NCBI GenBank assembly: GCA_030295235.1
Contig: AP026133.1
Span: 868,001 to 932,000, forward strand
Direction: 5' to 3'
Source of the DNA: Fistulifera solaris
Lineage: Eukaryota; Bacillariophyta; Bacillariophyceae; Naviculales; Stauroneidaceae
Length of the DNA: 64,000 bases
A program made the translations under genes and the position numbers. Under the pieces are notes generated by a model that saw nothing but the letters and a program-made list of their open reading frames with translations, did not search any database and was not told the DNA's origin. Below, in pieces: positions 8,239-17,004 of the stretch (positions within the stretch are counted from its first letter, which is position 1; each line of letters starts with the position of its first letter).

Positions 8239-8537
8239 TGGAAGATTATCACTCAAGTGTTGCTGTGAGAAGTAAATAAAAGACATAGTAGTGAATGAGT
8301 TAAATGAATCTTGAGATTGCGCAGAGCAAACTGGATCTCATCAGCTTGGTTTTACAATCGGCCTCGTTCGTCTAGTTATGAAAAGCATGCGGTCAGTTAC
8401 GTCGTGTGGACGAAGTATCTAAAAGTGGTTATTATTTGTTAAAAAAACTCACTGCAGTAACATGATAGCCATATGTTGGCGAGAGACAGGGAAATATGTT
8501 TCAAAAAACAATCCGTCATAATAAAAGATAGATGAAC

Positions 8538-11013
8538 TTAATCGACAGTAACTGCCTTGGCAAGATTTCGTGGAGTATCCGGGTTGATTCCTCTGAAAGT
8601 GAAAAGTGTGAGTCGAACTACTTCTTTTCATGCTGGCAGCACAGCCACAAGAAACGTACCGTAACATGGCCAACTCGTACGAAATCAACTGTAGTGGAAG
8701 AACAGCACCCAACGCGGTCAACGGACCATTGTTGGGGATGATGATGGGATCGTCGTCTAAATCACGGGCCAATTCAGCTTTGTCAGTAATAATTATGACT
8801 TGAGCTCCGCGTGCTTTCACTTCTTCTGCCGCAGTACGCATGTGATGCGCGTGCTGATCGTCTAGAATCAACATGATAATAGGCGTAGCACCAAACTTTC
8901 CGTTGTTGTCATCTTCAATCAACGCAAATGGACCGTGCTTCAAAGCGCCGCCACTGTACCCTTCGGCATGCAAGTAGCACATTTCTTTAATCTTCAAAGC
9001 ACCTTCCATAGCCACCGGTTCTCCATACCCTTTGCCCAAAACAAAGCAATGCTCCTTCGTATTGAGTTTTTGAGCCACCTTTTCACATTGTTGACGCGTT
9101 TTCAATGCCATACCGAAGGTAATGGGCAATCGCATGAGTGCTTCCTTCAATTTGATGGCCTCAATACTAGGTGGATGACCTTCGATTTTGTCCCTCGTTT
9201 GACGGAACCACAGAGCAATCAATGCCAAGACGGTGACTTGTGTGGTGAAGGCCTTGGTACTGGCCACGGCATTCTCGCGTCCCGCATTGCAGTAGACACC
9301 TGCCTTAGTCGTTCGGGCAATCAAACTACCGACGGCATTGACGACACTGAGTACATTGATGCCACGGTCCATGGCCGTATTCACAACACGAGCAACATCT
9401 TTCGTTTCACCACTTTGGGACACCACAATGAGTCCGGTCGATTCTGGATTCGACGGACAAGGAAAATCCTTGGGTTCCGTTTCAGCCGCATCCAACGAAT
9501 ACACACTATCAAAACTACCCAATTGCTTCATGAGGCGTTCACCGTACTTGGATGCATTGAGACTGGTCCCACAAGCCGACAAGACCATGTGTTTGATTTG
9601 ACTGAATCGATCAAAGTTCCCGTCCAACCCACCGAGATTGATGTTGTCCGCCCCCAATCGTCCACCAAAGCCCATGGCCCGGGCAATGGCTTCGGGCTGT
9701 TCGTAACACTCCCGGAGTGTCCAGTGCGGATACGGCGCCGGACTGAGTTTGACATCTTGATCGGGTGCCTTTTGTTTGCGTTTCAAGTCCAGTGACCGTC
9801 CGTCGGCATGCAACACACCAATTTCTCCATCTTTCATGGAAATGAAATTCTTGGTGTACCGATTGAACGCCGACGTTTCACTGGCGATGAAACAACGATC
9901 ATCTCCGATTCCAATCACGAGAGGGGAACCATTGCAGGCGACGACCAGTTCATCGGGCGAATCGACACACATGATCCCCAATCCCCAGGTGCCGTCACAC
10001 TTTTGCAGGGCCTGTTCGGTGGCATCACGGAGTGTCATGCCCGGATTGTTCGCGTAGACGTGTCCAATCAACTTGGCAATGACTTCCGTGTCAGTTTGTC
10101 CTTCAAATTGGTGTCCGAGTGCTTGCAACTCTCGTCGTAATTCGTTGGAGTTGTTGAGCGTTCCGTTGTGGACTAAGGCAATCTTCCCTGACGAATCGGT
10201 ATGAGGATGGGCATTTTCATCGGTTTTTCCACCATGTGTCGCCCAACGCGTATGCGCAATGCCTACCGAGTGTCCTACCGATGCTTGCGAATGATCACGG
10301 ACCATTTCAATGGAGTCGGCTTTTTCTCCGACACTGGCAAATTTGGTGATGGCCTAGAGAAGAAAAGAGAGAGAGAGAGGAGGGGGAGGGAAATAAGAGC
10401 GATAGTATGAGAGATTAAGAGCTAACATTTGCAAATGTCAATGTCTTTGTAATCATAAAAGTAACGCACCAATTTTCCTCCATGATTGTCCATGGTCGCA
10501 ATTCCAGCACTGTCATAACCACGATTCTTCAAAATGGTCAATCCATCGACCAAAAAAGTCACTGTGGGAATGATGATCCGAAAGCAGATAGATAAATACT
10601 CGACGTGAGAAATCGACAGAAGAAACAGAATGAATCAATCAATCAATCAATGAAACAAAAGAACATGTTTTCGTATCCGACTCTTTCCCGTTGTGTTGTT
10701 TCTTACGGTTTTTCGTTCATTATTTCATTATTCGCTGATATTCATTCGTTCAGACGTACCGTGCTTCGACGCCTTTCAAGGCCACAATTCCAGCAATCCC
10801 ACAACACTCGGCTTTTTGTTGTTCTTGTTGTTGCCATACCGCCATGGCAGTGACCGCCGCGGCCGCCACTATCCAGGAACGATCGTTCTTTTGGTGGGTC
10901 GACGACGACGACGACGACGACGACAAGGTCGAGAAAGCCGCGAATGTCGTCGGACGTCTCGTTATCGACATCGACTGGACGATTAGTTTTCGAGATGTCA
11001 ACCACAATGTCAT
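8538..11013 (-). CDS. Glutamine:fructose-6-phosphate amidotransferase (GFAT)
   Basis: The enzyme makes glucosamine-6-phosphate from fructose-6-phosphate and glutamine, the entry step to UDP-GlcNAc. I read four exons (11013-10760, 10561-10470, 10353-8660, 8592-8538) and about 697 residues. The class II glutaminase domain has [21 protein letters not shown] and HTRWATHGG; two SIS sugar-isomerase domains follow ([28 protein letters not shown]), and the protein ends [17 protein letters not shown]. The splice at 8659/8593 is needed to reach this tail. Exon 2 holds one T too many in a T run at 10552-10557. The catalytic Cys lies near residue 75, behind an extension with a poly-Ser tract (TCG repeat) and a hydrophobic stretch [15 protein letters not shown]. 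The start at 11013 is uncertain; 11082 is an in-frame alternative. Confidence 0.93.
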
Positions 11014-11648
11014 TTTCAAAGAGAGAGAGAGTGCAAGGAAATCAATGAAGATACGACTAGCTCTCACACACTTGAAAGGCAATGAATGAGCGAATCAAAT
11101 AATCGACAACGACTACACAATACGCAATCCAAACATTATACCGGTAGTCGCACGAAAAGCCAACAAAGCCGGGTCATCGTCCCCTGTCCTCTCCCAAGAA
11201 TGCCAGCATACAAGATACGCGGAGTCCCGAGGAGCACTCTTCCGTGGAGGGTGTCCAAGGCTACTGTTTTCGATAGAGTACAAGACGTTTTTCGCTCGAC
11301 CGGATACAAGAATGTACCATCCGTGACCGGTGGGATTTTGATATCGGGATTCGTGATTGTGACTTTTCACTTTTCACGTTTGTTGAAGTGGTCTGTCGTC
11401 TGTCGTCTGTCGTCTGTCGCGTTTTTTTTCGCACGCATCGCAATCGCGTGACTCAAAAATTCATTCACGTTTTTGCGGGAAAAAGAGAGATCGCGAAGCC
11501 GCAACAACGATGAGGATGATGATCATTCAATAATGCCTATAGCACTGCTAGCTACCCATTTCTTCGTTCCTTTTCTTTTTTGATTCTGTTCTGCACTCGA
11601 TCCACTTTATACCATTACTCTCCTCCTATCCCGTGACTCATAATATAT
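11014..11648. promoter_or_regulatory. Divergent promoter region between GFAT and CoaX fusion
   Basis: About 635 bases separate two divergently transcribed genes. The short open frames here overlap and show no domain. A GA repeat near 11020 and a repeated CTGTCGT stretch near 11393-11420 are visible. No specific factor site can be named. Confidence 0.5.
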
Positions 11649-14161
11649 ATGAATCATCATCATAATATCACCAACTCTTTCTCGCCGTCACAAATTTGTG
11701 CTTCACTGACGATTCAAGAGGCACACTGGCCCGAATCATGTCCTCCAGAAGAAGGATTTCTTTCTGTTATTACTGGGAATACACATTGTAAATTTGCCTA
11801 TCATGATGGAAGTGATTATCGTCCTCGGTCCTTTTGGAGGTACGTGTTGGAGTGGTGTTCGAAGAAAAGAAAGAAAAGAAATGGAAAGGCACATTACTCA
11901 TCAACATCCTTCTCTTTATTCTTTCTTCTTTTTTTCTTTTTTTCTTATTTAGTATTCCCGTTGCACCGTTGTCACACAACAATCACACGACACAAAATAA
12001 CCGAGACAGTTTTCTGGAATCCATTCCCCATCAATGTACTGCGGCACAAGCCTTGTGGAAATCACCCAATGATACAATCATCAAGCCACTCACACGCGCG
12101 GCCATCTATTATTATCGCGTCACCACGAAACGAATTCCGACCGTCACAATCTATCTCATTTCGACCAATCCTGTTCATGAAAGCATATTAGGACAATGGT
12201 TGCAAGGATTGCCTGTACGATGCATTCGATTGCGTCCGAAGGATGTTGTGTCAATGTCCTTGCCGTATCCGACAATGGGGATGGATCGATTTGTCGCGGT
12301 ACAAGCCATTTCGAAATATCCCGCACTCATTGTAGATGGAGGAACGGCTTTGACGACGACTGTATTGAATGAAAATGGACACATGGTCGGTGGAACGATT
12401 GCACCGGGTTGTATGCGCAATGTCGGGCATTGCATATGGGAAATTTGCCGCTCTTGACACCGGACGAAATACAGCAATTCATGGAACGTAACGAACCTTT
12501 ACCATTGTGGGCGAACAATACTCACGACGCCATGTGGAATGGAGTAATGAGGAGTACGGCTTTGTTCATACGCGCGGTGGTGCGGGAATTTTTGCAGCAG
12601 TATCACGTGCCGGCTAAGAATGGTTCAACAATCGTACATGTGATTGTGACAGGATCGGATGGACCGTTCCTGATGAAATTCTTAAAATCCGAATCATGTC
12701 ACCGATTGTTGGCCCAGATGCCCCGCGATAGTGACTTTGAGTGTGATGACACCACCGTGATGGAATACAATCCACATTTGCTGCATTTTGGCATAACACA
12801 GATTCTGTTGCAGCATCGAGAGAGTAATGATGTCGATGAGTCGTTTCACTCGGAATGGATTGGATTGCGGGTCGCACGGAATGTTGGGCGTGGATATGTG
12901 GATCGGGTCGAACAAACGGAGAATTTGGCACAAGCTTTGTTTCATGTCGTCTATGATCATGGTTGTAGCGAAGTTTTGGGGGTACTGGCATTCTATGGTA
13001 TGTGTCTGTTGCATATTTTGTCGAACTGTATAACTGTTTCTGACAAAAAGGCACTTTCGGGAATCAGATGCTTTGATTCGATACAGTCTAAACGGAGAGA
13101 GTATTGCGACAGTCAACATGACGGAGAGTTCCGCTGTCGAACGAAAACAAAAGGAAGCAGAACGAGCCGCCGCTTTGCTGGTGGAACGGTGTGCCGTCGT
13201 CAAAGAACACAAGGAAAGTACTATTGGTGCCCCGCCTGTGTTTAGTCCAGAGAAAGCGCTGCAAGGGAATGCGTTGTTGCCACATTACATTATACCAAAC
13301 GGGCCAACGCCAGTATTTAGTCCAGGACGAGCCAGGGCGCCACCGAGTCGGAAACGTGGTCGACCTCGAAAGAATTCTCTGTCCCCGCAGCCGATTTTGA
13401 ACGGAGCGATTGCAACAGAAACGAGCAGAAACGTTTCATCACCGCAACTGAGTAGTATCTCATCCAAACGCGGCCGACCTCGCAAGAATCCATTGTCCGC
13501 GACGCTAGTTCCGAATGAGGCGATTGTTGCTAAAACAGGAATGAATGTTTCGGTATCGCAACAGAGTAGCACGCCACGTAAACGTGGTCGACCTCGAACG
13601 AATCCTCTGTCCCTGCAACCGGTTTTGAGTCCAGGTCAAGCGACTAAACGAGGTCGACCTCGAAAGAGTTCTTTGTCCCTGCAACCGGTATCTAATCAGA
13701 ATGAAGCAACTGTAACAGAAAAGGACCTCAATACACTAGCGCTGCCGCAGAGTTCGTCACGCAAACGAGGTCGACCGCGCAAAGATTCTATGCCTACGAG
13801 TCCAGATCGAGCTCCTAGAATGGATCCGAATGACGAGGCAACGGCGTCGCAGCAGAAGCAGAGTACGCCACACAAAGTTGGTCGTCCTCGAAAAAATCCT
13901 ATGAGTTCAAACAAACAAGATCGAAGGCGAAAAGAGTTTCGAAATACTCTGCCTGACGGTGTCCTACCAACGGATTATGTACACCGCCGCGTCGCTAAAT
14001 TCTTTGGGGATGGAAAGACCCCGTTTTACGGAAAAGTTGAGTCTTACGATCCCGAGAGTCAATATTGGAAAATATTGTACGACGATGGAGATGAAGAAGA
14101 AATGGAGTTCTATGAACTAGTTGTTCAATTGAAATGCTATGAAGAGAATAATAATGAGTAG
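11649..14161 (+). CDS. CoaX-like domain fused to Tudor-like domains and six AT-hooks
   Basis: I read three exons (11649-11839, 11953-12997, 13068-14161) giving about 776 residues. Residues 37-340 form a type III pantothenate kinase (CoaX) domain: GNTHCKFA, MGMDRFVAVQ, VDGGTALTTTVL, GGTIAPG, ALHMGNLPL and VTGSDGPFL. One base appears missing near 12412-12416. The Asp of the first phosphate motif (DxGNT in active CoaX) is Ile here, so activity is doubtful. Residues 363-420 look like a Tudor-type fold (IGLRVARNVGRGYVDRVE, FHVVYDHG). Residues 500-690 hold six GRPR AT-hooks that should bind the minor groove of AT-rich DNA. Residues 714-776 form a second Tudor-like domain (VAKFFGDGKTPFYGKV, WKILYDDGDEEEMEF). 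The second intron joins the CoaX/Tudor part to the AT-hook part in frame with consensus splice sites. Likely nuclear; role unknown. Confidence 0.8.
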
Positions 14162-14813: not shown

Positions 14814-16048
14814 ATGTCTGGAAAGAGTTATATGTGGCGTGTGGCAGCGCTTCTAGTTGTAATGGGTCATGTGATACTACTCGCAAGTCGATCGCTACCT
14901 TCATTCAATATACCGCGACAATCGCAGCAACGCCAGCTTTCGACGAAAGAATCTCGAACGTGCTCTCTTTCCGAGGAAACATTACGCTTCCAGTTTCATG
15001 AATGGACGAAGACTTATCGTCTCGTCTCGGATGGTACAACCGCCGATGAACGATGGAAATGGACCGTTGATAATTCCTTCAATCAATCCGTAGCGAATAA
15101 GGGGACAAATATTTCCAATCAGAACGAAACGAACCGACTGTTACAAGCCGGAAACAGCAACAATACGACAACGAATCCGGTGACGTTGCGAACCTTTCAC
15201 AAACCAACGGAGCCATTATTGAAGTACGCGCGTGTTGGTGTGCCGAAGCTTATCTGCATCGACCTATTGAATATTGCCCGGCCAGTTTTGATACATGCCT
15301 CGTACGAGGAGAGGAAGGTTTGGTATCATGCTACACGACTACCGGCTCTCATGGTTTTATGAGAAGCTTTTGGCCGTTGGCGTCGTTCTGGATTCTGGCG
15401 CTGGCTTATGCTTTGACATGTACGGACGGAGGTACTTGGGCGCGGCAATACATTCGACGGATACTTGCGCATCCCTCGGAGGGCCAAGTCATGTTGGAGG
15501 AAAATTTGGATCAGTTGCTGGAGGAACGACCCGAACACGCCGTGTTTTTATATCGACAAGCAGTCATGCGGATACGACAAGCCTATTTGGAACCGAGACG
15601 GCGGCGGGAATGGTTTTCCACCTCGAGCGATTCGGATGAATCGCACGCAACGCCAGATGGTGGGGATTTTTTGGAGGCCCCTCGCGATGCATTAATATTA
15701 AAAATCACGACGTATGACGAACCGTCCTCGATGGCACTTCGAACGTCATCCGTGGCAAGGAATAACACGACATCATGGCGTTATGATCAAATCACTTTTC
15801 AGCAAATGGATAGTCAAATGGAGCAAGGACTCCGATGCGCTATTTGTTTGGTGCGTCTGGAGCAGGGAGATGCTGTAGGAGATATTCCTTGCGGCCATGT
15901 ATATCACAAAGCTTGCTTAAAAAGTTGGTTACCGCAAGCCAATCGCTGTCCCTTGTGTCGACACCCTGAAATTGCTACTTTACGGACACGTCGCCCCATT
16001 TCGCAACCAGCATCTATCAGCGAGCTATCAATAGCTCAAATTTACTAA
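14814..16048 (+). CDS. Membrane-anchored RING-H2 E3 ubiquitin ligase
   Basis: The protein is about 411 residues. An N-terminal hydrophobic segment (VAALLVVMGHVILLA, residues 10-25) looks like a signal anchor. A lumenal-type Asn/Thr-rich region with many N-x-T/S sites follows, then a second membrane segment (FWPLASFWILALAYAL). The C-terminal RING-H2 finger reads CAICLVRLEQGD, PCGHVYHKACLKSWL, NRCPLCR, so all eight zinc ligands are present. Such proteins recruit an E2 enzyme and ubiquitylate substrates at endomembranes. The frame shifts once near 15215-15222, where one T seems missing; beyond it CAEAYLHRPIEYCPASFD runs on in frame. The substrate is unknown. Confidence 0.8.
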
Positions 16049-17004
16049 ACTAGAACTTTTCAAAAATTTGCAAGTGTAGCTAACAAAGCTATCCATGTTC
16101 CTTCAATGTGCTAATGGGTTGAGACTGGAGAGCCTTAGTCCAAAGTCTCAATGCGAAAAATAATAATATGGGGTAACATCGCGATCTCCTGTCCGTCAAC
16201 TGCGTGGAATGGGTTTGCTCAGTCGCCTGCCTGTCCACCAGCCTCCAACTTCAACGCGGAGTCGAACCTCCGCCTACGCGCAAGTCCTACCGCGACAGTC
16301 AACCACAAGGAGACGATGCTACCTTGCTGATAATCCGGATCTATATAAAATCGACATTGTTTGATACTCTACACACTGCATATCGACAATTTAACGACAA
16401 CAATTACCTAATATACATTTCTAATTTCCTAAAGTCAGAATCTAATTATGACATTCGACTGAATTTTCCATTTTTTGTTTCATTTTTTCACATATATTCC
16501 AATCTGGCACTTAGCTGAGTAGGCTTTGGTTCTAGCTCTAGCTCTAGTGCTAGTAGAGGGCCAGGCCAGTCCAGAGTCCAGAGCCAGAGCCCGTCTCCCA
16601 ATGACAATGAGGGCGAGACCGTAAATTTTTTGTTTTTTGACATTCTTTCACGACTAAATTTTTAGTTTTTAGGTCGCTGCACTTAGTACTTCTGATAGGA
16701 GTCTTGAGTCCCGGGTTTCCTATTTCATTGACAGTGTCACACTTCACAATAGTAAACAGTACAGTTTGTAAGTTCAAGAATCAAAGTCATACCTGGTAAT
16801 AATGATGGACAATGCAACAATGACATGACATCGAAAAAATGAGATCCTTGATCCTCTCGATCTTTGATTTTTTGAAGTTTGATCTTTCGCTCCTCGCCAC
16901 ACGCCTGTCCCACCTTGTGACACCTTGTGCGAAGCACAAGGTACGCTGCAAGCGCTATTTCCATTCAATTGTTGATTATTTACCAAGTTACGTGTTACAG
17001 CAAG
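16049..17004. other. Intergenic, low-complexity patches
   Basis: No supported gene. A short run of CTAGCT-type repeats lies at about 16530-16555, followed by GGCCAGGCCAGTCCAGAGTCCAGAGCC. Part near 16240-16270 resembles a tRNA T-arm on the minus strand, but no cloverleaf follows. Confidence 0.4.

Follow-up and report, generated by a model that had tools for sequence, protein, structure and literature searches.

In bacteria, the type III pantothenate kinase family CoaX/Baf (TIGR00671, PF03309; cyanobacterial branch NF009871) has been tied to transcription control by Baf 'transcriptional activator' proteins and by BirA-CoaX fusions, which join the CoaX domain to a biotin ligase/repressor. These proteins are bacterial and contain neither Tudor domains nor AT hooks. 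Fusion of a pantothenate-kinase fold to another domain is also known from human PANK4, which is a pseudoenzyme, and from plant PANK2; in both, the fold is of type II and the partner is a phosphatase, not a set of chromatin modules. The coupling between CoA metabolism and chromatin state is a known theme. The structure PDB 2nrh carries the name 'Transcriptional activator, putative, Baf family'.

Here, we analyze a gene of the diatom Fistulifera solaris in which a CoaX domain is followed by Tudor and AT-hook modules. The gene lies in a 64-kb window (the whole stretch of DNA that was analyzed, C8:868001-932000) of a 51.7 Mb genome assembled in 61 contigs. Similarly to the CoaX/Baf family, the enzyme part of its product scores above the TIGR00671 and PF03309 cut-offs and carries the motifs GxDR, DxGT and GGxIxPG; similarly to 16 of 17 cyanobacterial CoaX in particular, it lacks an acidic residue where the N-terminal DxGN[ST] motif has its Asp. 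Unlike these enzymes, the fusion falls below the NF009871 cut-off, is encoded by a eukaryotic gene with introns, is joined to Tudor and AT-hook modules, and has two pairs of paralogues devoid of the CoaX motifs. The last Tudor domain (Tudor2) resembles those of PTM/DIR17-like Tudor proteins (PF21743) and exceeds the Pfam cut-off, but is joined to a metabolic-enzyme fold.

Gene structure and domains of the fusion protein

The gene model consists of three exons (Table 1). The NCBI protein "type III pantothenate kinase [Fistulifera solaris]" (P0001; 776 aa; PF02178, PF03309, PF21743) originates from a 187-kb contig and, therefore, from an assembly other than that of the window. It is identical to the model across the three exons, except for an X at the frame break; its name conveys the kinase only. 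The site and phase of intron 1 are shared with a homoeologous copy on C7 and with the predicted introns of both paralogue pairs described below, and the site of intron 2 is shared with the C7 copy, where the intron is 69 bp long, and with the predicted introns of the paralogues. The two introns are probably spliced in the cell as modelled, the gene structure being derived from sequence comparison.

The earlier note on this DNA had described one spliced protein in which a CoaX/Tudor1 part, read as a single open frame, is joined to the AT hooks by a 70-bp intron. The domain order and the intron were borne out, the latter by the splice present in P0001; the single open CoaX/Tudor1 frame was not, as intron 1 had been missed and the frame is broken by one base. 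Joining of CoaX and Tudor/AT-hook parts in one protein is supported by P0001, by the homoeologue and by two paralogue pairs. Both halves are present in the paralogues, so that the alternative in which they are always separate genes does not hold. The fusion gene is real, and it is old relative to the duplications.

Table 1. Features of the CoaX-Tudor-AT-hook gene (window coordinates)
Feature	Position	Strand	Remarks
Exon 1	11649-11839	+	N-terminus; first CoaX strand and loop; ITGNT, versus DxGNT in most non-cyanobacterial CoaX
Intron 1	11840-11952	+	113 bp, GT-AG, phase 2
Exon 2	11953-12997	+	Remaining CoaX, linker, Tudor1
PF03309 stretch (aa 170-275)	12269-12585	+	GMDR, DGGTA, GGTIAPG motifs
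Frame break, one base	12407-12408 (about)	+	Inside CoaX; specific to this assembly, P0001 and the C7 copy being unbroken there
Tudor1 (aa 365-412)	12853-12996	+	Profile comparison, not Pfam
Intron 2	12998-13067	+	70 bp, GT-AG, phase 1
Exon 3	13068-14161	+	A/E/L-rich stretch, AT-hook region, Tudor2, stop
AT hook 1	13349-13375	+	RKRGRPRKN
AT hook 2	13463-13489	+	SKRGRPRKN
AT hook 3	13577-13603	+	RKRGRPRTN
AT hook 4	13643-13669	+	TKRGRPRKS
AT hook 5	13760-13786	+	RKRGRPRKD
AT hook 6, variant	13871-13897	+	HKVGRPRKN
Tudor2, PF21743 PTM/DIR17-like (aa 719-763)	13985-14119	+	Pfam

The domain assignments of the earlier note were confirmed for the most part. In P0001, the CoaX domain exceeds the curated cut-offs of both PF03309 (68.1 bits versus 24.7) and TIGR00671 (81.3 bits versus 58.2, aa 39-318), and Tudor2 exceeds that of PF21743 (44.5 bits versus 27.2). 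All six AT hooks are found by pattern (aa 507-689; five KRGRPR cores and one KVGRPR, with GRP in a basic setting), and Pfam counts four stretches (AT_hook PF02178, 27.9 bits, cut-off 17.4). For Tudor1, the assignment stands by profile: its comparison with the Tudor2 profile scored 42.7 in hhalign with paralogue rows included (100 column shuffles, at most 16.5) and 24.4 with P0001, P0003 and P0004 alone (100 column shuffles, at most 17.5); Pfam, up to E 10, reported no Tudor1 in these three proteins. A genome-wide PF03309 search matched only two loci, the gene in the window and its homoeologue on C7.

On the opposite strand upstream (window 8449-11082, -) and divergent from the fusion gene lies a gene that by eye is glucosamine-6-phosphate-synthase-like, with its CGIAG N-terminus seemingly in an exon of its own near 10750-10810.

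Affinity of the CoaX part and relatives elsewhere

The best NCBIfam model for P0001 is NF009871 (90.4 bits, below the equivalog cut-off of 251), followed by TIGR00671, with the next equivalog at 53.9 bits. NF009871 is also the best model for P0003, P0004 and all three cyanobacterial proteins compared, but not for those of Bacillus or Rokubacteria. The bacterial CoaX set for comparison was taken from 28 of the 80 listed loci (28 matches) and from 4 of the 14 plasmid matches; L175 was excluded as a second piece of the frame to which L167 belongs. P0001 scored 41.7-73.5 bits against 14 of the 17 cyanobacterial CoaX, 20.8-28.9 bits against the other three (one from Synechococcus WH5701 and two from Prochlorococcus), and no more than 34.8 bits against 14 non-cyanobacterial ones. 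P0004 followed a similar trend (36.6-64.0, 21.7-36.3 and at most 34.4 bits, respectively). Judged by scores, best model and motifs, the CoaX of the window gene is nearest to most cyanobacterial CoaX. In a tree of 35 CoaX sequences, the four diatom-type sequences form one clade (100/100); the tree is unrooted with long branches and does not separate a placement inside the cyanobacteria from one outside, so both a plastid origin and a later transfer would be compatible with it.

Alignment to 31 bacterial CoaX showed that GxDR, DxGT and GGxIxPG are kept in P0001-P0004 (GGTISPG in P0004); a few of the bacterial sequences deviate at one motif. The acidic residue of the N-terminal DxGN[ST] is replaced by Ile in P0001; P0002-P0004 do not extend to this region. 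We considered whether the missing Asp proves the enzyme to be dead and rejected this, because the same is seen in cyanobacterial CoaX: the position is non-acidic in 16 of 17 (L157-L173) and Glu in one, versus acidic in all 14 non-cyanobacterial CoaX (12 Asp, 2 Glu). Thus, Ile at this site is not by itself a sign of decay. It should be noted that, among 18 cyanobacterial genomes searched for CoaA and CoaX as the only pantothenate kinases, CoaX was found in 17 and CoaA above the cut-off in none. The F. solaris genome also encodes a type II pantothenate kinase (Fumble, PF03630), at C7:808392-810070 (305.5 bits, main piece) and at C8:699046-700720, where the best piece contains one stop; therefore, bulk CoA supply need not rest on the CoaX protein.

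A set of 5.8 billion proteins contained at least four relatives (P0001-P0004); some of these searches scored only about 8000 candidates, and further distant relatives may exist. P0003, a JGI metagenome protein, represents the C7 copy. P0002 (JGI metagenome; 84% identical, 296 aa) is a Fistulifera-like CoaX that ends just ahead of Tudor1, which may be a real stop, a frame break or the end set by the gene caller. P0004 (59% identical, 376 aa) comprises CoaX and Tudor1 and ends at the intron-2 donor, as would be expected of a gene caller that ignores introns. The complete fusion was found in F. solaris alone, and CoaX with Tudor1 also in the source of P0004. No relative was found in GTDB genomes or IMG/VR contigs (query A2 in both) or in phage records (query P0003).

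The literature searches yielded no paper on type III pantothenate kinase in diatoms. Among the matches listed, none of those for pantothenate kinase/AT-hook/Tudor and Tudor/AT-hook/diatom describes this family, those for pantothenate kinase or CoA biosynthesis in diatoms were unrelated papers only, and those for the type III active site, BirA fusion and Baf included nothing fitting. No mention of pantothenate or of Tudor was found in the main text of the F. solaris paper PMC5935921.

Homoeologue, paralogues and selection

F. solaris has been described as allopolyploid, its chromosomes forming homoeologous pairs (PMC5935921). The homoeologue of the window gene (C7:978994-981530, in L003) has the same domain order, with a degenerate last AT hook. 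Between the two copies, the halves of CoaX have dN/dS values of 0.107 (95% bootstrap interval, about 0.05-0.21) and 0.144 (0.08-0.24), and Tudor2 has a value of 0.117 (0.03-0.34); these low values indicate purifying selection, by which the enzyme part is kept and so is the last Tudor. Constraint on Tudor1 is loose (0.55; 0.18-1.9). The AT-hook region has a dN/dS of 0.60 (0.39-0.85), which divides into 0.31 for the hook cores (54 codons) versus 0.70 for the linkers (143 codons). The value for aa 415-500, just past intron 2, is 0.24, and that for the whole protein is 0.26, calculated over 758 of the 776 codons after removal of breaks and gaps.

Two other frame breaks occur in the C7 copy, one near L003:4886 and one near L003:5444. 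When L003:4217-5352 (exon 2 of the C7 copy) is translated in two frames, it matches P0003 with 100% identity, and P0003 itself has no break at the first of the two sites. One-base differences between homoeologues also occur in the neighboring genes: three gaps within about 1.25 kb in a downstream region that is RING-like by eye (window 14814-16060, L003 7145-8400; counted across the region without regard to introns), and two differences near the end of the glucosamine-6-phosphate-synthase-like gene. We read the frame breaks as probable assembly noise, because P0001, the C7 copy and P0003 are unbroken at the respective sites and because the neighboring genes show such gaps; those covered by P0001 and P0003 are the only ones directly contradicted.

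When the exon-3 product was compared to the genome, it matched, beyond the two copies, C7:327526-328275, C8:249486-250335 and, less strongly, further loci on C8 and C9. The first two belong to a second homoeologous pair, paralogue 2 (L020, C7:326077-328434; L022, C8:248062 onward), which has a CoaX-related N-terminal part upstream of Tudor1 (BLASTP E 4e-16 in a single comparison). Aligned to the CoaX half in hhalign, this part scored 109.0, compared to at most 22.5 for 60 shuffles and at most 21.3 for 24 decoy ORFs (24 of the 26 window ORFs of at least 230 aa, the two of the fusion gene being excluded). The motifs are lost: GMDR is replaced by TTHDV and DGGTA by ECSDC, and GGTIAPG is gone. Pfam reported no PF03309 in paralogue 2 up to E 10, and a cyanobacterial CoaX profile matched it weakly (29.6 versus a maximum of 20.6 among 40 shuffles). 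The introns, predicted from GT-AG and homology, are in the same places and phases (2 and 1) as in the window gene. Tudor1 contains YDDGD, and downstream of intron 2 there are an A/E-rich stretch like that of the window gene, then a basic linker and, in the C7 copy, two more Tudor domains; in the C8 copy, the second C-terminal Tudor lies beyond a frame break. Pfam found no AT hooks in paralogue 2, and the only genes in which hooks were seen are that of the window and its homoeologue on C7. Between the homoeologues, dN/dS is 0.20 for the N-terminal part and 0.23 for Tudor1.

In the third pair, paralogue 3 (L184, C9:934725 onward; L185, C10:931020 onward), the N-terminal part is more diverged than that of paralogue 2. 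Its hhalign score is 55.9 with paralogue 2 (maximum of 60 shuffles, 20.1) and 44.1 with the joint profile (maximum of shuffles, 19.2). The scores against window-type CoaX sequences alone (17.3) and against the cyanobacterial CoaX profile (15.3) are inside the shuffle ranges (at most 22.0 and 19.8, respectively), and the tie to CoaX therefore runs only through paralogue 2 and the intron phases. The latter are 2 and 1 in predicted introns, the acceptor of intron 2 having been picked from two candidates. The CoaX motifs are absent in the alignment, the genome-wide PF03309 search gave no match there, and a genome search with the N-terminal part found just its own two copies. Pfam reports two C-terminal Tudor domains on C9 and one on C10. 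The N-terminal part has a dN/dS of 0.135 (292 codons), and Tudor1 of 0.32.

These second and third homoeologue pairs, motif-less and under purifying selection, are a new finding of this analysis. The loss of motifs under continued selection in two of the three paralogues suggests a non-enzymatic role, at least in those two, and makes a purely catalytic role in the family unlikely. Their N-terminal parts would retain the CoaX fold as pseudoenzymes.

Possible roles of the fusion family

The explanation that we consider best, and to which we give an even chance, is that the CoaX fold was domesticated into a small chromatin-binding family with one enzyme-like member, the others being pseudoenzymes. 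The window gene encodes a single 776-aa protein, in which a cyanobacterial-type CoaX and Tudor1 precede an A/E/L-rich stretch, the six AT hooks and the PTM/DIR17-type Tudor2, and one old fusion with later duplication would have given rise to three paralogues in two homoeologous copies each. Chromatin binding is suggested by the domains: the proteins may be anchored by the Tudors together with the AT hooks in the window gene or with the basic linker in paralogue 2. The CoaX fold would then act as a dimerising, ligand-binding and possibly sensing module, and not as the bulk supplier of phosphopantothenate. The window member has kept its pocket motifs, so that binding of ATP and pantothenate (or CoA) is still probable and catalysis is possible; the other two paralogues would have retained the fold as a pseudoenzyme. 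The kept motifs and the low dN/dS of the window member would suit an active enzyme equally well, and neither enzyme nor sensor is favored for it. In a more far-reaching form, which we propose tentatively, a cyanobacterial-type CoaX was captured once and fused to Tudor/DNA-binding modules to become a metabolite-gated chromatin regulator. One paralogue, its pocket intact, would still read ATP, pantothenate or CoA; the others would be pseudoenzyme partners, possibly in mixed dimers, and CoA status would be linked to chromatin in an oil-storing diatom.

Rather unlikely, in our estimate, is that the protein is an active pantothenate kinase on chromatin that provides local CoA for histone acetylation, with the motif-less paralogues as later offshoots. 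The three intact motifs and the CoaX dN/dS of 0.11-0.14 are as expected under this explanation, and the Ile at the Asp site need not imply inactivity, given the non-acidic residue in 16 of 17 cyanobacterial CoaX and the 0 of 18 cyanobacterial genomes with CoaA above the cut-off; however, the genome has a type II pantothenate kinase, and the motifs are lost in two of the three paralogues. We regard as improbable that CoaX is an enzyme of the cytosol or plastid whose AT-hook/Tudor tail is without significance for chromatin. The kinase-only NCBI name and the loose AT-hook linkers (0.70) would fit such an enzyme, but Tudor2 is constrained like the enzyme part (0.12), the hook cores are tighter than the linkers, and the paralogues keep C-terminal Tudors.

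Two further explanations question the gene itself. An annotator could have merged two adjacent genes, CoaX-Tudor1 and AT-hook-Tudor2; exon 3 has in-frame start codons, P0002 does not reach Tudor1, and P0004 stops at the donor site of intron 2, although such an end is also expected if the caller ignores introns. This is very improbable, as the site and phase of intron 2 are shared by the homoeologue and, in the same flanking order, by two paralogue pairs, and aa 415-500, past the junction, have a dN/dS of 0.24. Hardly more credible is a decaying pseudogene with frame breaks in both homoeologues: the window copy has one break and the C7 copy two, and the second C7 break and those of the paralogues are uncontradicted by any other sequence seen, but the break in the window is absent from P0001 and the first one on C7 from P0003, the gene is under purifying selection, and one-base gaps are also present in the neighboring region (three within about 1.25 kb).

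The fusion documents a pantothenate kinase fold of type III in a eukaryotic genome that also has the type II enzyme. If the physical link holds, the coupling between CoA metabolism and chromatin becomes testable within a single protein. The paralogues form a natural series from an intact to an eroded active site, so that catalysis, ligand binding and fold can be tested against each other directly; genome editing in F. solaris has been published (PMC13276009), and RNA-seq data of this diatom for 48, 96 and 144 h are named in PMC5935921.

PF21743, the domain of Tudor2, has at least 18 matches in this genome, at least 14 of them above the cut-off. On C15 (L182 1486-2619, -), a PF21743-type Tudor is followed by a part that by eye is C5 DNA methyltransferase-like, with a PF21743 counterpart on C16, and on C11 (L186 1771-3096), a Tudor-like end is seen on a protein that by eye is related to ubiquitin hydrolases.
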